This document shows positions 8,223-15,988 of a DNA stretch of 35,580 bases, piece after piece. Every line of letters starts with the position of its first letter. Position 1 is the stretch's first letter. The position numbers and the translations under genes are program-made. Source of the stretch: an uncultured Bacilli bacterium (GTDB lineage Bacteria; Bacillota_I; Bacilli_A; RF39; UBA660); contig CANPZG010000012.1 in assembly GCA_947588765.1 (NCBI GenBank), positions 1 to 35,580 of the forward strand, written 5' to 3'. Below the pieces are notes generated by a model, which saw nothing but the letters and a program-made list of their open reading frames with translations, did no database searches and was not told the DNA's origin.

Positions 8223-8536
8223 TATTCAATAGCAATTATTTGATTAAAAAATAATTTTAAATTGTTAGTTAAATAGATCATTTTATATACTTGATCTATT
8301 TTTATTATTTTAGATTTTATATTTTTAATAAAACCATCATTATAAAAGAAAATAGAAATGTTTTCTTTACAATAATAAGCTTCAATAATTTTATTTTCAA
8401 TATCAGTTATTTCTTCTTCCGAAAGTATTGGTTTAGCAATTTTACTTTTTTCTAATAATATGCTTTTAATAACAGCTTTGTTGGAAGTTAAAGATTCAAA
8501 TGGTTGCCATTTAATAATCCCACGATCAAATTTCAT
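8219..8536 (-). CDS. YolD-like family protein
   Basis: This 105-residue protein begins MKFDRGIIKWQPFESLTS, the characteristic YolD-like opening (RGxxKWxPFxSL). In Bacillota, YolD-like proteins are usually encoded directly after a UvrX-type Y-family polymerase, as here, and are thought to act with it in SOS mutagenesis. By analogy they have been compared with UmuD. The start overlaps the polymerase stop by 4 nt (ATGA), and a GGAGG ribosome site lies inside the end of the polymerase gene, so translation is coupled. The biochemical role of the family is not settled. Confidence 0.8.
   Translation of the reverse strand: MKFDRGIIKWQPFESLTSNKAVIKSILLEKSKIAKPILSEEEITDIENKIIEAYYCKENISIFFYNDGFIKNIKSKIIKIDQVYKMIYLTNNLKLFFNQIIAIEY
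8271..8310 (+). terminator. Terminator lying inside the convergent YolD-like gene
   Basis: A 10-bp inverted repeat AAATAGATCA (8271-8280) / TGATCTATTT (8292-8301) is followed on the plus strand by TTATTATTTT. It is about 50 nt after the stop of the acidic membrane protein and lies within the opposite-strand coding sequence. Confidence 0.55.
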
Positions 8537-9798
8537 TCGTGATGACCTCCAATTTTTTTATTTCTATCTATAGCTGTTGAATCGGGAAGTAAACTAGAAG
8601 CTTTAAGAATACTATTTTTGCCATATTTATTTTTAATTTCATCAATCGTAGTATTAACTTTTTCTTCCTCTTCCATTTTTTCTAAATCATTAAATAAATC
8701 TAATTGAATACCAGTTTTATTTTTTAAGCCTCCACAAGAAATACTTACTTTTCTGATGGGTAAAAATTCATAATATCGGTCAAAAATGATATCACAATAA
8801 CGATTTATTTCTAAAGGAGAGTCGGTTGGAGCATCAAGTTTCGTAGAATGATAAAAACCACCACCAATATTCTTAGAATAACCGATGCCTAAACCAATAA
8901 TGGTAGTTTGTTTTTTATTTTGACGTAAGCGTCTAGCGAGTAACTCAACCATTTCCGTGATAATTAATTTAATATTATTTTCATTATAATCTTTAAATAA
9001 TACTTGGGAATGACTAAAAGATTTATCTTTAGGTAGTTCTTTATAGTCATTAATTCTACTTAAATCTATCCCATTCGCGTGATTCCATAGTTCGGTTCCC
9101 ATGACGCCAAATTTGTCTTTTAATTTATTTCTTTCATAATTAGCTAAATCACCAATTGTATAGATATTTAAAGTATTTAAATTTTTTTCCATTCTCTTAC
9201 CAATTCCCCACATTTTAGATAAAGGGGTAATAGGCCATAATTTTGTAGCAATATCTTCATAAGTCCATTTTGCAATGCCATTTTTATATTTTTTAGCTTC
9301 GGTATCCATCGCTACTTTAGCTAGTAACATATTAGGTCCAATCCCGCAGTTGGCTGTTAGTCCGGTCTTTTTATAGATAGTTTTAAGAATTTCTTCGGCT
9401 AGCTCATAATCACTTTTTTTATAAAGTTTTAAATAATCAGTAACATCAAGAAAACATTCATCAATGGAATAAATATGTAAATCTTCTTCAGAAATATAAT
9501 CTAAATAAATATTGACAACTTCCTTACTTTTAGCTAAATATAATTTCATTCGTGGAGGTACAATCGTATATTTAATGTTACTCGGAATATCATATAATCT
9601 AGTTCGGGAGGCAATTCCTTTCTTTTTTAAAAAAGGAGTGATGGCTAAAGTAATTGCTCCATTACCTTGAGTTTTATTAGCCACTACCAAAGGAACAGAA
9701 AAAGGATCTAATCCTCGTTCTACGCATTCGCAGGCAGCAAAGAAACTTTTTAAATCAATGCAAAGAATATTTCTTTTGGGATATAATTCTTTTTCCAT
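8533..9798 (-). CDS. Y-family DNA polymerase, UvrX/UmuC-like
   Basis: This 421-residue protein is a translesion DNA polymerase of the UmuC/UvrX branch. The first catalytic motif is CIDLKSFFAACE (D15) and the second is YSIDECFLDVT (D114, E115). The steric-gate region is SFFAACE. A helix-hairpin-helix-like segment (PLSKMWGIGKRMEKNLNTLNIYTIGDLA) covers the thumb, and the little-finger region follows (KDKSFSHSQVLF). Length is normal. The start is supported by GGAGG 7 nt before the ATG and by a consensus promoter upstream. It forms a two-gene operon with the YolD-like gene. An SOS-box-like dyad in the promoter suggests damage induction. I give no gene symbol because dinB, uvrX and umuC usage differs between lineages. 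Confidence 0.92.
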   Translation of the reverse strand: MEKELYPKRNILCIDLKSFFAACECVERGLDPFSVPLVVANKTQGNGAITLAITPFLKKKGIASRTRLYDIPSNIKYTIVPPRMKLYLAKSKEVVNIYLDYISEEDLHIYSIDECFLDVTDYLKLYKKSDYELAEEILKTIYKKTGLTANCGIGPNMLLAKVAMDTEAKKYKNGIAKWTYEDIATKLWPITPLSKMWGIGKRMEKNLNTLNIYTIGDLANYERNKLKDKFGVMGTELWNHANGIDLSRINDYKELPKDKSFSHSQVLFKDYNENNIKLIITEMVELLARRLRQNKKQTTIIGLGIGYSKNIGGGFYHSTKLDAPTDSPLEINRYCDIIFDRYYEFLPIRKVSISCGGLKNKTGIQLDLFNDLEKMEEEEKVNTTIDEIKNKYGKNSILKASSLLPDSTAIDRNKKIGGHHE

Positions 9799-9887: not shown

Positions 9888-9915
9888 TTGCAAATATCGA
9901 AAAATATGGTATTAT
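9888..9915 (+). promoter_or_regulatory. Promoter of the 1179-residue repeat protein
   Basis: TTGCAA (9888-9893), a 16-nt spacer and TATTAT (9910-9915) place the start point near 9922. This rules out translation starts upstream of about 9925 and supports the ATG at 9942, preceded by AAGGGGGA. Confidence 0.6.
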
Positions 9916-9941
9916 ATACGCCAAGGGGGATTTTGGTTATT

Positions 9942-12900
9942 ATGGAATATGAGTATTTGCCAACCTATTTAAATAGCGATACGGAAACAATTGCTAATTT
10001 TATGGTAAGAATGCCGAAACAATATCAAAATCTTGCAATAAAATTATATGGTCCTAACTATACAAACAAAATAAATAAAAATAATTTAAGTGGAATAGAA
10101 AAATTAAGTTTTATTTCTGTTTTAAAGTCTATAAAAAAGTATTTTCAAGAAAAAGACTATTATATTTGGGATATGATTGGTTGTTCGAAAAAAGAATTTG
10201 CGAGTTTAATTAAAACAATTAATCCTAAATCTTATTATTATGCTGTTTTAGTTAAAACTTGTTCTCCAAAATTAACGCGTTTACCTAATTTAAGTAAATT
10301 AAATAATAGTGAATTAGGAGCTTTTAATGAAGTTATAAGAACATTACAAAGTAATTATCAAAAATTGATTTCTGATGAAGACAAAGAAGAAAATATTGGT
10401 GGAACACTTCAAGAAATATTAGATTGTTCCACTCCTGAATTAGAATTATTTAAAAGTGCTTTAAATGTAGCTGAAGCTGAAGTACGACGCGTATTTATGA
10501 TTATCTTTGGACCAAAATTAAACCATAAATGTAATTTATTTAATTTAACTGATGAACAATTAAAAATATATTATCGGTGGCTTGAAATTGGTAAATCATC
10601 AATTAATGATGTAAGAACTAAAGAAAAAGTTGAAGAAACTTCAAAGCCAAGAAAACCTCGTGAAAGAAAACCCAAGGTTAAAAAAGAAATAAAGAAATAT
10701 TTATATGAACAAGCTGAATGTAGCAGGGAAGAATTACAAATAGTTTTAGACAGTGGCTTTTTAAATAAAGAAGATAAATCATATCAAGAATTAACGAGAG
10801 TATATGGTCTTTCTTTGGATGAAGAATTAAAAGTCACGGAAGAAGAAATAAATAAGTCTTTATTTACTCAGGGCATTAACAAAATAAAAAAATTAAAGTC
10901 AGCAATTATTGATAATAAAATGTTACCCGAACATAAAATAGTAGTACCTAAAAGAGAAAGAAGAAATAGTAATAATTATTTATATGAGACTGTTGGTTGC
11001 TCTTTAGAGGAATATAAAATTTTATTAAAGACTCTTGATCCTAATGCTAAATATTATGAAATATTAAAAAAATTATATGGACCTAATTTATTAGAAAGAA
11101 AAAAGAGTTATTATTTTACGAGGGATGATAAAGAATTTTATGATTATGCGAAAAAAGCTTTAAAGAAAACTTATCATGAAGTTTTTCTTAAAAATGTTCC
11201 TCTACGAAAATACTTAAAAGCTAATTATTATTTATATGAATATTTAGATATACCTAAAGAAAGATTAATTGAATTAACGACTAGTGTTTATTTTGATGAA
11301 AGTACTAAATATTATCAATTATTCCAAGAATTATTTGGTTTGAATTTTTGTGAAATAATAGATTATGATAGATATAATAAAATGGATACTAATGAATATT
11401 GGACTTTTAAACATACTATTAGAAATTTAGATAAATTATATCAAAGCATATATATTGATAAAAAGATGAGTTTGGATGATGGTATTAAACAAAATTATCA
11501 TAATTCTCGTTATTTATATGAAATGGTTGATTGTTCTTATGAAACTTTAATGATTGTAATTAATAGTAACTATTTTAATAAAGATAAATACTTAAAAGCT
11601 CTTCAAAGTGAATTTGGCGAAAACTTAGACCAAGTTCAAGTAAAACAAAGTAGTAATGAAAGAGTAAATATAAGAGATATTTTAAAGCGAATTAGAAATA
11701 TTTTAGATGATGTTAATGCCGGTAAAAAAGAATTAACTAAACCAGAATATCTCTGGGAAAAAGTAAATATTCCTAAAGATGAATTAGATATTATCTTAAA
11801 TAGTGATTATATTAATAAAAAAGCTAAGTATTATCGATCTTTACAAGAAGGATTTGGTTACTCTTTAGACCAAGCATTTAATCCTTTTAATGTTAAAGAT
11901 AAAAATGCTTTATATACAGCTTTAGATAGATTAAATAAATTATATCAAGAAATATTTGTTGCTAAGACTTTAACTTTAAATGATATTGAAAGAAAGAAAA
12001 AGATGTCTAATACTAATATTTATCTATGGGATATTATTGGTTGTACGCAAGCTAAACTAGAAGAAATGGTTAATAGCGAGTATTATTCTAAAAAAACTGC
12101 TTATGCTGCTTCTTTACAAAAAGTTTTTGGCCCTAATTTAGATCAAGTAAGAAATAAAGAAGGATTAACTTTAGAAGAAGATAATGCTTATCAAATGGGT
12201 ATTGAAAGATTAAATAAAATTTATCATAATAGAGCTTCGACTGTTCCGAAAGATACTAAATTACATGAAAGAGTAGGTTGTACCTATGAAGAACTACTAG
12301 AACTAATAAACTGTAATCGTTTTCAAAAAGATAAAAAGGCATATAATGCTTTAAAGAAAGCTTGTGGAGAAAACTTTGACCAAGTAATTTGTATCAAAGG
12401 ATTATTAAAAAGTGAAAAAATGGCTGTTTATAATGGCATTAGATTTTTAAAGAAGTTAAATGAACGAAGAAAATCAAGTAATTATTCTTTAAATAAAGAA
12501 AAGCCTTATCTTTGGGAAATGATTGAATGTGAACCAAACGAATTATACTTAGTAATGCCTAAAATAAAACCAGAATCTAAAAGAGAAATAATCATGAAGC
12601 AAATGTTTGGGGAAAACTTAGATGAAAGAAGAAAAGATGTACCTGAAAATTTAAGTATGAATGCTTATGCACTAATAGCGGATTTAAAAGAATACTATCA
12701 AGTTTTAAAAACTTTTAGAGATGAAAAGCTAGAAATCCATGACTATTTAAATTGCCGTAAGGAAGATGCCCAAAGTATTTTGGAAGTATTAGATTATGAT
12801 TATCATAATTATTATGCAATATTAGTTAAAGCAACAAATAACTTTACTAGTTATGTGGATATTAATTTACTTAATCCAGATGAAAAACTAGAATTAAGAA

Positions 12901-13481
12901 ATATCATGAATTTATTAAAAAGAAGATTAGTAAATTTACAAGAAGAAAAACAAGAAAATAATATTTATGTTGGATTATGTTTAAATGAAATAATTGGTTG
13001 TGAAAAAGAAAAACTACCATTGCTAATGGAAAACTTAAGTACCGGAGAAGCTAATATTATTATGTTAGTATTTGGTTATAAATTAGATTTAACTTATCAA
13101 TTTCATGGCTTAAATAAAAACCACAAGAAGAGATTAAATGATGCTTTAATTAAATTACAAGAAATATATTTAAATAGCATTAAGACTTGCGAATGTGAAT
13201 TACTTTTGCCGGATGGTGTTACTTTAAGTAAGAAATTAAAAGTGTTAATTAGTAATTTAGCTACTCCATATAACACAATAGCCACTAGTTTAGTAATAGG
13301 GGAAGATTTAGAGACTATATCTAAATATTTAAATATGGACAAATTAGAAATAATTAAAATAAGTAGAATATTATATAATTGGTTAAGTAATATAAATGAA
13401 ATACATAGAATTCAAGAAAATAAGACTTTAGAAGATAGTGAATATGTTTTAAAATTACTTGCACAACCTAGTAAAAAGTGA
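9942..13481 (+). CDS. Large protein of about 13 related helical units, function unknown
   Basis: This 1179-residue protein is not one I recognise. It is built of a recurring unit of about 75-100 residues. Each unit opens with a motif like YLWEMIECxxxEL (YIWDMIGCSKKEF, YLYEQAECSREEL, YLYETVGCSLEEY, YLYEMVDCSYETL, YLWDIIGCTQAKL, KLHERVGCTYEEL, CLNEIIGCEKEKL). It continues with a helix containing Tyr/Leu, then an xFGxNLDQ-type turn (YGPNLLE, FGENLDQ, FGYSLDQ, FGPNLDQ, FGENLDE), and closes with a helix ending near LNKLYQ. I count 13 units, the first and last two degenerate. No signal peptide or membrane segment is seen, and Lys/Glu-rich helices suggest a cytoplasmic scaffold or nucleic-acid binder. 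The C-terminus (about 1085-1150, LETISKYLNMDKLEIIKISR) could be a helix-turn-helix. The ATG at 9942 is chosen because in-frame codons further upstream lie inside the promoter. It has its own promoter, and its end carries the thrS promoter. Confidence 0.8.
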   Translation: MEYEYLPTYLNSDTETIANFMVRMPKQYQNLAIKLYGPNYTNKINKNNLSGIEKLSFISVLKSIKKYFQEKDYYIWDMIGCSKKEFASLIKTINPKSYYYAVLVKTCSPKLTRLPNLSKLNNSELGAFNEVIRTLQSNYQKLISDEDKEENIGGTLQEILDCSTPELELFKSALNVAEAEVRRVFMIIFGPKLNHKCNLFNLTDEQLKIYYRWLEIGKSSINDVRTKEKVEETSKPRKPRERKPKVKKEIKKYLYEQAECSREELQIVLDSGFLNKEDKSYQELTRVYGLSLDEELKVTEEEINKSLFTQGINKIKKLKSAIIDNKMLPEHKIVVPKRERRNSNNYLYETVGCSLEEYKILLKTLDPNAKYYEILKKLYGPNLLERKKSYYFTRDDKEFYDYAKKALKKTYHEVFLKNVPLRKYLKANYYLYEYLDIPKERLIELTTSVYFDESTKYYQLFQELFGLNFCEIIDYDRYNKMDTNEYWTFKHTIRNLDKLYQSIYIDKKMSLDDGIKQNYHNSRYLYEMVDCSYETLMIVINSNYFNKDKYLKALQSEFGENLDQVQVKQSSNERVNIRDILKRIRNILDDVNAGKKELTKPEYLWEKVNIPKDELDIILNSDYINKKAKYYRSLQEGFGYSLDQAFNPFNVKDKNALYTALDRLNKLYQEIFVAKTLTLNDIERKKKMSNTNIYLWDIIGCTQAKLEEMVNSEYYSKKTAYAASLQKVFGPNLDQVRNKEGLTLEEDNAYQMGIERLNKIYHNRASTVPKDTKLHERVGCTYEELLELINCNRFQKDKKAYNALKKACGENFDQVICIKGLLKSEKMAVYNGIRFLKKLNERRKSSNYSLNKEKPYLWEMIECEPNELYLVMPKIKPESKREIIMKQMFGENLDERRKDVPENLSMNAYALIADLKEYYQVLKTFRDEKLEIHDYLNCRKEDAQSILEVLDYDYHNYYAILVKATNNFTSYVDINLLNPDEKLELRNIMNLLKRRLVNLQEEKQENNIYVGLCLNEIIGCEKEKLPLLMENLSTGEANIIMLVFGYKLDLTYQFHGLNKNHKKRLNDALIKLQEIYLNSIKTCECELLLPDGVTLSKKLKVLISNLATPYNTIATSLVIGEDLETISKYLNMDKLEIIKISRILYNWLSNINEIHRIQENKTLEDSEYVLKLLAQPSKK

Positions 13482-13490: not shown

Positions 13491-13690
13491 ATTAAATCGA
13501 TGAGGAAAGATACGATTTTAACTTGGAGTTTAAAGAGAGTTAGTGGTTGGTGGAAACTAATAAAAAGAGTTAAAGTTACTACTTTCTAAGAGGATTAATA
13601 AATCCCGGTTCATAGCCGTTATCTAAATTAAGTGAAAAGAAGGATGGTACCGCATTATTTGCTCCTGTAAATAATGTGGTATTTTTTTAT
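13491..13690 (+). promoter_or_regulatory. T-box leader (tRNA-Thr-sensing riboswitch)
   Basis: The leader carries the T-box sequence AAGGATGGTACCGCA (about 13640-13654), close to the consensus AGGGTGGNACCGCG. It is followed by a strong terminator whose 5' arm overlaps the T-box, as required for the alternative antiterminator. The upstream half has Stem I features (GATGAGGAAAGA at the start, a GGTGGAAAC element) and a small GGATT/AATCC hairpin (13592-13605). Tandem ACT Thr codons at 13578-13583 are the likely specifier. Uncharged tRNA-Thr would stabilise the antiterminator and turn on the HD gene and thrS. The T-box call is firm. The exact specifier pairing needs folding. Confidence 0.92.
13649..13690 (+). 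terminator. Regulated terminator of the T-box leader
   Basis: ACCGCATTATTT (13649-13660) pairs with AAATAATGTGGT (13669-13680) with one G-U pair, across an 8-nt loop. A T-run follows. The 5' arm includes the ACCGC of the T-box sequence, so terminator and antiterminator are mutually exclusive. Confidence 0.9.
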
Positions 13691-13704: not shown

Positions 13705-14244
13705 TTGAAATTAACAGAAGAAGAAAGAAAGACATTGCAGCAATATTTTACTAAAGAAGAAATAGATGGATTGATTGCTAATGATGATTTATATAATAAA
13801 TGTGAAACTTTAGTCGAAAGATTATTTAAGGAAAGACGTGATAAAGCTAATGAACCATATATTGGCCATTTACAAAGAGTTAGTGCAAAACTTTATTCTT
13901 TAGAAGAAAAATGTGCAGGTCTTTTACATGACACATTAGAAGATATCCCGGGTATGACTCCTCAAATATTAAGTTATTTAGGAATACCTAATGAAGTAAT
14001 TAAAATGGTTATGTTAGTAACTAAAAGTGGAAACTTAACCTATGAAGAAGAAATATATAAAATAATTTTAAGTCAAAATTATGGCGCAATGAGATTAAAG
14101 ATTGCTGATATAAAAGATAATTCAGATCCTAAAAGATTAAGTAAATTAGATGAGGCAACCAAAGAAAGGTTAACTAATAAATATAGAGAACCAAAGAAAA
14201 TATTAGAAAGAACAATGGAAGAAAGAGGTAAGGAAAATGATTAA
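13705..14244 (+). CDS. HD-domain protein (RelA/SpoT hydrolase-like fold)
   Basis: This 179-residue protein has the metal-dependent HD phosphohydrolase pattern of the RelA/SpoT group. H55 is in PYIGHLQRVS, the HD pair H75-D76 is in CAGLLHDTLED, and a distal Asp is in RLKIADIKDNSD. There is no synthetase or TGS domain, so it resembles small stand-alone HD proteins that hydrolyse nucleotides. Its substrate is not known from the sequence. The start is TTG at 13705, supported by AAGGAGGAA 7 nt upstream. It is the first gene after the Thr T-box and overlaps thrS by 8 nt, so it should be induced with thrS on threonine starvation. A link to (p)ppGpp breakdown is tempting but is inference. Confidence 0.8.
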   Translation: MKLTEEERKTLQQYFTKEEIDGLIANDDLYNKCETLVERLFKERRDKANEPYIGHLQRVSAKLYSLEEKCAGLLHDTLEDIPGMTPQILSYLGIPNEVIKMVMLVTKSGNLTYEEEIYKIILSQNYGAMRLKIADIKDNSDPKRLSKLDEATKERLTNKYREPKKILERTMEERGKEND

Positions 14245-15988
14245 TATTAAAGAAAATGAAAAATTAAGTGTAATGAACCATTCTTGTGCTCATTTACTAG
14301 CCCAAGCTGTAAAGCATTTATATCCCGATGCTAAATTTTGGGTTGGACCAGTAATAGAAGAAGGTTTTTATTATGACATTGATTTGAATGGTAAAACTTT
14401 AACGATGGAAGATTTAGAGCCAATTGAAAAAGAAATGAAAAAATTAGTTAAGGATGGCAAAAGAATTTTTCGTGAAGAATTAAGTAGAGAAGAAGCTTTA
14501 GAAAAATTTAAAGATGACCCTTATAAAATTGATTTAATCAATAATATGAGTGATGATACGGTTATTAGTTGTTATACGCAAGGGGATTTCACGGATCTAT
14601 GTCGTGGACCACATGTTGAAAGTGTTAAGGAACTAAAGAACTTTAAGTTATTAAAAGTAAGTGGGGCTTATTGGAAAAATGATGCAAAAAATCATATGTT
14701 ACAAAGAATATATGGTATTTGTTTTGATAGTCCTGAAGCTCTAGAAGAACATCTAAAAGCCTTAGAAGAAGCAAAAGAAAGAGATCATCGAAAGATTGGT
14801 AAAGATTTAGATATCTTTATGACTCATGATTTAGTAGGTAAAGGCTTGCCTATGTATTTACCTAATGGTTATATCATTTGGGAAGAACTAGAAAACTATA
14901 TCAAGGGAAAAGAAAAGAAGCTAGGTTATAAACATGTTTTAACGCCACCTTTAGGTAATGTCGAACTATATAAAACATCAGGTCACTGGGAACATTATCA
15001 AGAAAATATGTTTCCTAAAATGGAAGTTGAAGGCGAAGAATTTGTTTTAAGACCAATGAATTGTCCTCATCATATGATGATTTACGCTAATGATATCCAT
15101 TCTTATCGTGATCTACCAATAAGAATCGGTGAAATTGCCAGAGATTGTCGTTTTGAAGCCAGTGGTGCTTTAAAAGGTATTGAAAGAGTTAGAACATTTT
15201 GTCAAAATGATGCGCACATATTTGTAACACCAGAACAAATTAAAGATGAATTTTCGCAAGTTGTTAATCTAATTCTAGACGTTTATAAAGAATTAAATAT
15301 CACCGATTATCGTTTTGAATTATCTTTAAGAGATAAAAATGATAAAGTAAAATATCATCCTGATGATGAAATGTGGAACAATGCTGAAGATACTTTAAGA
15401 AAAGTATTAAATGATTTAGGTATTGAATATATTGAAAAAATTGGTGAAGCAGCCTTCTATGGCCCAAAATTAGATGTTCAAGTTAAACCAGCTGTGGGAG
15501 TAGAATATACTTTATCAACTTGCCAACTTGATTTCTGTTTACCTGCTAAATTTAATTTATCTTATATTGATAAAGATGGTAATAAGAAAACTCCTGTGGT
15601 ATTACATCGCGCAATATTTGGTAGTATTGATCGTTTCATGGCTTATTATCTAGAAGAAACTAAAGGCGTATTACCTTTATGGCTTGCACCAGTTCAAGTT
15701 AATATTATTCCAGTTAATAATGAATATCATTTAGAATATGCCAAAAAAGTTCAAGAAGAGTTGGATAAATTAAATTATCGTACAAAGTTAGATGATCGAG
15801 AAGAAAAACTGGGCTATAAAATGCGTGAAAGTGTAATTAAGAAAATCCCTTTTGCTGTAATAATCGGTCAAAAAGAAGTGGATTCTAAGACTATAAGTTA
15901 TCGGAAATATGGTAGTGAAGAAACATTTAATCTATCAATGCCAGAATTTATTAATTATCTGAATGAATTAAAAGCAAACAAAAAGTAA
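14237..15988 (+). CDS. thrS: Threonyl-tRNA synthetase (without N-terminal TGS domain)
   Basis: ThrRS charges tRNA-Thr in the cytoplasm. The 583 residues are about 60 short of the usual 640. The missing part is the N-terminal TGS domain, since the sequence begins directly with the editing domain. Editing-site residues are present: HSCAH (H15, H19) and CRGPH (C122, H126). The class II core has RPMNCPHH (zinc-binding C276), the GEIARDCRFEASGAL/RVRTFCQNDAHIF motif 2 region, YGPKLDVQVK, and LHRAIFGSIDRF motif 3. The anticodon-binding domain starts near PLWLAPVQVNIIPV. Translation starts inside the preceding HD gene (8-nt overlap), and the stop is followed by a bidirectional terminator. Control is by the upstream T-box. 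No start further upstream could restore a TGS domain, because the HD gene occupies that DNA in another frame. Confidence 0.97.
   Translation: MINIKENEKLSVMNHSCAHLLAQAVKHLYPDAKFWVGPVIEEGFYYDIDLNGKTLTMEDLEPIEKEMKKLVKDGKRIFREELSREEALEKFKDDPYKIDLINNMSDDTVISCYTQGDFTDLCRGPHVESVKELKNFKLLKVSGAYWKNDAKNHMLQRIYGICFDSPEALEEHLKALEEAKERDHRKIGKDLDIFMTHDLVGKGLPMYLPNGYIIWEELENYIKGKEKKLGYKHVLTPPLGNVELYKTSGHWEHYQENMFPKMEVEGEEFVLRPMNCPHHMMIYANDIHSYRDLPIRIGEIARDCRFEASGALKGIERVRTFCQNDAHIFVTPEQIKDEFSQVVNLILDVYKELNITDYRFELSLRDKNDKVKYHPDDEMWNNAEDTLRKVLNDLGIEYIEKIGEAAFYGPKLDVQVKPAVGVEYTLSTCQLDFCLPAKFNLSYIDKDGNKKTPVVLHRAIFGSIDRFMAYYLEETKGVLPLWLAPVQVNIIPVNNEYHLEYAKKVQEELDKLNYRTKLDDREEKLGYKMRESVIKKIPFAVIIGQKEVDSKTISYRKYGSEETFNLSMPEFINYLNELKANKK

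Follow-up and report, generated by a model that had tools for sequence, protein, structure and literature searches.

A protein of thirteen divergent repeats from an uncultured gut bacterium belongs to a lineage-specific family tied to sigma-70 factors

The sigma factor is the part of RNA polymerase that finds the genes to be switched on, its region 4 binds the -35 element and the beta-flap, and primary-type sigma factors are usually regarded as a fixed domain set. Among ECF sigma factors, C-terminal extensions have been described: ECF41 carries a SnoaL-like extension that is inhibitory, ECF42 carries a TPR extension that is needed for activity, and such extensions work through protein contact or conformational change (PMC8999054). 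The protein we analyze here (the array protein), from an uncultured gut bacterium, has relatives that are likewise sigma factors with a C-terminal extension, which in ECF42 is also repetitive and helical. These relatives differ from ECF41 and ECF42 in that the fusion hosts are RpoD-like rather than ECF and in that the extension consists of an unlisted bead, repeated from 1 to 11 or more times and followed by a second region-4-like domain; the array protein itself has no sigma core. Its tandem helical units recall the TALE, PPR, TPR, and mTERF repeats, but they are about twice as long, are predicted to form four-helix beads, and match no profile. A preliminary description of this DNA had already remarked that the protein fits no known repeat class, and the libraries we searched agree: the array protein has no convincing match in Pfam, NCBIfam, PHROGs, or PADLOC, and none in Pfam or NCBIfam to sigma-70 regions 2 and 4, which its array-fused relatives do have. 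Short, weak matches to Rsa3 (E 0.005), PipB2_N (0.16), and phrog_26698 (0.005; a family without assigned function) were not convincing, and identity as the anti-phage protein MzaA was rejected, the matches being confined to the shared sigma core and falling well short of the NCBIfam cut-off.

The array protein (1179 aa) is encoded by an open reading frame at positions 9942-13481 on the forward strand of the window, by which we mean the whole 35,580-nucleotide stretch of DNA that was analyzed, with its ATG at 9942 and its stop codon at 13479-13481. A probable ribosome-binding site (AAGGGGG, 9923..9929, forward strand) is conserved in an intact ortholog, L109, from an uncultured Bacilli genome whose isolate name indicates rabbit gut; this site and the upstream sequence conserved in L109 favor the ATG over a TTG at 9888 as the start. 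A possible promoter (TTGCAA-16-TATTAT with TG before the -10, 9888..9915, forward strand) lies in the same conserved sequence and is a consensus match only, of a kind that shuffled sequences yield about as often. The two proteins are 77% identical over 1141 residues with a dN/dS of 0.30 (Nei-Gojobori), and thus the array gene is under purifying selection and maintained.

We found exactly 13 divergent units in the array protein with an iterated profile. Units 1 to 13 occupy residues 6-66 (9957..10139), 75-137 (10164..10352), 156-218 (10407..10595), 254-317 (10701..10892), 347-409 (10980..11168), 431-498 (11232..11435), 525-586 (11514..11699), 604-667 (11751..11942), 695-760 (12024..12221), 774-839 (12261..12458), 857-918 (12510..12695), 933-994 (12738..12923; the weakest match), and 1014-1074 (12981..13163), all on the forward strand. 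The count of 13 and the motif given in the preliminary description stand, and the repeat family is real, but the 75-100 residues taken there as the unit are its spacing (69-98 residues from start to start) around a core of 61-68 residues (about 64), and the array ends at residue 1074 rather than near 1050. A profile made from relatives only, leaving the array protein out, recovered 13 of 13 units (i-E ≤8e-6, best 9.8e-17) and found none in 200 shuffles of the array protein; a profile from units 1-7 alone detected units 8-11 at ≤1.5e-7 and, less strongly, units 12-13 (about 1e-2). Compared in pairs, the units are 23% identical on average, and their consensus reads L.EI(v/l)(G/N)C(S/T).EEL....L......Y..L...FG.NLD.......L...E...Y..(a)I..LKK, with the Cys conserved in 10 of the 13 and the Gly in almost every unit. 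We rejected the idea of a metal site at the Cys, since the residue is absent in 3 of the 13 units and in other genera. Positions L1, E3, C7, L12, Y25, L29, F33, G34, L37, L46, and L64 show zero changes against L109, and positions 5, 9, 13, 27, and 43 are among the most variable, a pattern that is, at the level of sequence, one of a conserved scaffold with free surfaces.

AlphaFold predicts with confidence that each unit is an independent four-helix bead. The model of a single unit (unit 9) has a pLDDT of 95.6 and a pTM of 0.81, with helices at 2-6, 10-17, 27-36, and 51-69; in the model of units 8-10 (pLDDT 90.5, pTM 0.48) the units are confident and their mutual arrangement is uncertain. The preliminary description had suggested a solenoid, which these models of separate beads do not support. 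It had also proposed a Foldseek comparison, and searches with the three-unit and single-unit models against the PDB and viral models returned no significant match to a known fold. Tandem copies of sigma region 4 or helix-turn-helix domains, named there as what might overturn the idea of a novel repeat, were half borne out: the unit has sequence likeness to the start of region 4 (below), but the fold match is poor, with Staphylococcus aureus sigmaA domain 4 ranking 17th against the single unit (E 6.9, TM 0.32-0.34), which is not evidence.

The bead surfaces bear on the idea that each bead reads DNA, so that the array, in the manner of TALE repeats, would spell out a long modular address. A tandem series of modular units that differ in surface would suit such an address, as would the basic linkers between units (53 K/R vs 38 D/E), the terminal helix-turn-helix, and the sigma linkage. 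The net charge of the units, however, ranges from -5 to +6 and sums to about zero, so that they are neutral on average, they show no conserved basic surface, and no pair of hypervariable positions stands out within them; we regard DNA reading by each bead as very improbable.

To place the family, we searched for the units in other genomes. A genus profile found them in 38 of 291 sampled genomes across the host's taxonomic family, and a broader profile applied to the order found them in 111 of 288 genomes, where all of the matches listed lie in the host's taxonomic family. Outside that family there were isolated matches at E above 1e-5 only, none above chance level. Phage records and viral contigs yielded no relatives of the array protein, and a phage origin was rejected on this ground. 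The unit family is peculiar to one bacterial (taxonomic) family, which upholds the earlier proposal of a new family in this lineage. Its members are known here from their sequences alone. At eight or more loci we found fusions, in which a complete sigma-70 factor (regions 1.2, 2, 3, and 4 above Pfam cut-offs) is followed by units and then by a second diverged region-4-like domain, and at several loci array and sigma genes are adjacent. The number of units per complete fusion runs from one (L124 and L125, each a sigma factor with a single unit and the C-terminal domain) to 11 (L025). Many long unit-only proteins also occur in the host's taxonomic family; the largest number of units detected in an array-only protein is 18 (L095). 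The array protein is recognized by the unit profile and shares its C-terminal domain with the sigma-array fusions; the sigma-70 fusion or adjacency that is common but not universal among relatives is missing for it in this genome.

At the C-terminal end of the array protein, about residues 1087-1158 (13200..13415, forward strand), the possible helix-turn-helix of the preliminary description can be linked to the sigma factors. Tails of the array-protein type match the C-terminal domains of the sigma-array fusions (E 8.6e-9), which in turn match sigma region 4 (E 7.4e-14); compared with region 4 directly, these tails match weakly (1e-3), so that the link runs through relatives. By this chain of matches the end of the protein is probably a diverged sigma-region-4-like domain, with a likeness to the whole of region 4.

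The likeness of the unit itself to sigma-70 region 4 (PF04545/PF08281) is more partial: its two middle helices (...L......Y..L...FG.NL) resemble the first helices of region 4, but a matched helix-turn-helix and a significant fold match are absent. When 134 units were compared with 24,736 Pfam families, Sigma70_r4 was found for 9 units, Sigma70_r4_2 for 7, and the next family for 3. A region-4 profile made from the loci scored units above shuffles, with 27 of 142 above the 99th percentile (p = 1.6e-23, which overstates the independent evidence because the units are akin to one another). The best of these scores come from units of other genera; within the array protein only unit 13 stands out (8.6 bits vs a maximum of 7.6 in 2840 shuffles). 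Profile-profile comparison of unit and region 4 gave a score of 19.1 over 28-29 columns, where 100 column shuffles reached at most 13.0 and reversed rotations at most 7.8; we take this as moderate evidence because column shuffles lose helix periodicity and reversed profiles keep it only partly. The array-only proteins of L105 and L103 exceed the NCBI sigma70 cut-off, by summed repeats. We conclude that the bead is probably a duplicated and decayed copy of sigma region 4. Alternatively, unrelated helical repeats might have been fused to sigma factors by chance, the likeness to region 4 being convergence of amphipathic helices. Such convergence would fit the lack of a significant Foldseek match and the mere 28-29 alignable columns, but it leaves unexplained why region 4 tops 24,736 Pfam families and why diverged region-4-like copies also occur in the tails (residues 652-709 of the L096 protein, and the C-terminal domains); we find it rather doubtful.

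Gene order in the window is dinB, array, HD-type gene, thrS. The dinB-like SOS polymerase gene (8533..9798, reverse strand) and thrS (14237..15988, forward strand) form the left and right borders of a conserved locus, and an HD-type hydrolase-like ORF (13705..14244, forward strand; named by eye) stands where relatives carry a sigma-70 gene. The order in L133 is dinB, array-only gene, sigma-70 gene, thrS, and in L023 dinB, array, sigma; across L023-L025, dinB occurs with an array, a fusion, and/or a sigma gene, and in L025 it adjoins a single 1626-aa sigma-array fusion. In L022, a fusion with >20 units (its 5' end off the contig) and two further sigma-like genes lie next to thrS. Because these same-genus loci hold array and sigma-70 genes or a fusion, the dinB-thrS interval in same-genus genomes is, judged by gene content, a sigma-array locus, and the position of the gene, which had at first been dismissed as uninformative, is anything but. 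The array protein looks like an array that remained after loss of the sigma gene. An array-type sigma gene is absent from the window locus, which is contiguous, and was not found elsewhere in the 92%-complete assembly, where its absence is unproven; an ordinary rpoD adjoins dnaG in the same assembly. A separate feature of the locus is a terminator-like hairpin at window positions 13646-13683, which begins with GGTACCGC and precedes the HD gene and thrS; it has no Rfam match at the gathering cut-off. Genes for thrS may have T-box leaders, which this hairpin resembles.

The missing sigma gene could mean that the array no longer serves transcription and has become a scaffold or nucleoid-associated protein with parts inherited from a sigma factor. 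That no array-type sigma partner was found in the genome is consistent with such a departure, as is the weak region-4 signal in the array protein's own units and C-terminal domain. The relatives nevertheless retain the sigma link, and the ends of the array are conserved, units 1-3 and 11-13 being 82-95% identical to L109 vs 61-73% for most middle units; we consider it quite unlikely that the array has left transcription.

Instead, we favor, at a probability of roughly 55%, the reading that the array protein is an orphan of a sigma-70-derived array family and most likely an accessory factor of transcription initiation that acts in trans. This reading is supported by the 13 units, the unit-bearing fusions, the shared locus order, the single-unit sigma factors, and the region-4-like C-terminal domain, as well as by the Pfam ranking, the region-4 profile, the profile-profile score, the array-only proteins of L105 and L103 that exceed the NCBI sigma70 cut-off, and the dN/dS. 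It is weakened because the search of this genome turned up no sigma gene of the array type, because the bead lacks a significant fold match, aligns over few columns, and scores in unit 13 only, and because the C-terminal domain is tied to region 4 through relatives only. The average neutrality of the units, which does not favor DNA contact, also counts against it.

As a mechanism, we postulate that the ancestral layout was likely one polypeptide comprising an N-terminal domain, sigma regions 1.2-2-3-4, n beads, and a second region-4-like helix-turn-helix. This layout is still common in the taxonomic family, where complete genes have n = 1 to 11. The host's genus includes genomes in which the array stands as a separate gene beside the sigma gene, and in this genome the locus lacks the latter. 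Because the beads lie behind region 4 in the fusions, the tail should sit near upstream DNA and the polymerase flap; the C-terminal region-4-like domain may dock on RNA polymerase or upstream promoter DNA, and a free array protein with such an end could dock at the same site as the fusion tail. The flexible bead string would reach out to upstream DNA or to regulators as a multivalent arm, each bead presenting its own surface on a conserved core. Since the beads are neutral and the linkers basic, contacts with protein are no less likely than contacts with DNA.

Protein contacts would also suit a different role, in which the array regulates sigma factors and its sigma-like decoy beads titrate or inhibit sigma, anti-sigma, or the beta-flap of RNA polymerase. 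The likeness of the bead to the start of region 4, its neutral charge and unit-specific surfaces, and the precedent of the ECF41 extensions, which inhibit, and the ECF42 TPR extensions, which are required for activity (PMC8999054), are in keeping with decoys, but the arrays are fused to intact sigma factors, which makes pure inhibition odd. We consider decoy regulation possible, at well short of even odds.

Our searches of the open-access literature on region-4-repeat sigma factors and on this lineage found no description, and we conclude that this is a lineage-specific repeat family tied to sigma-70 factors, undescribed in the open-access papers found or the libraries searched. One bacterial family thus has sigma-70 tails of 1 to 11 or more beads together with free arrays, none of which the searched domain libraries cover. 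Should the arrays contact promoter DNA or polymerase, they would be a new route to diversify transcription initiation; if they do not, the family is an instance of a repeat scaffold descended from a promoter-recognition protein. In both cases, many long family-less proteins, or ones that pass a sigma-factor cut-off by summed repeats, become nameable. A tentative and, in our view, rather unlikely generalization is that the lineage might have made duplicated promoter-recognition domains into long, evolvable bead arrays that extend the reach of RNA polymerase upstream, on sigma or free-standing; were it true, array length and bead surface would form a new layer of transcription control.

Several further features of the relatives were observed. 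In the sigma factors of L021-L023, L025, L026, L094, L096, L097, L098, and L133, an N-terminal domain of some 150 aa lies ahead of region 1.2 or 2; those fusions that were scanned gave no convincing Pfam match for it. The L025 protein has a ParB-type helix-turn-helix (residues 458-553; PF17762, 42 bits) after sigma region 4 and before the array, and weaker matches to this segment lie behind region 4 in L022, L023, and L133, with Pfam confirmation in L025 only. A sigma factor of about 230 aa stands beside sigma-array genes in L026, L094, L096 (217 aa, at the stretch end), L134, and L138, and the host genome has a similar short sigma factor on contig C28, without arrays. In the arrays encoded by L105 (4063-8709) and L104 (4279-8292), units of about 85 residues hardly differ from one another and the linkers are basic, a pattern suggestive of recent expansion at the DNA level. 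With 42.6 bits against a cut-off of 37.3, the L105 array also exceeds the NCBIfam threshold for the Mycoplasma MG284/MPN403 C-terminal domain, probably by summed repeats, and a link to this uncharacterized mycoplasma protein is possible. Finally, in L095 (contig C13 of genome G197), five sigma and array genes are neighbors, and two of the arrays exceed 1500 aa.
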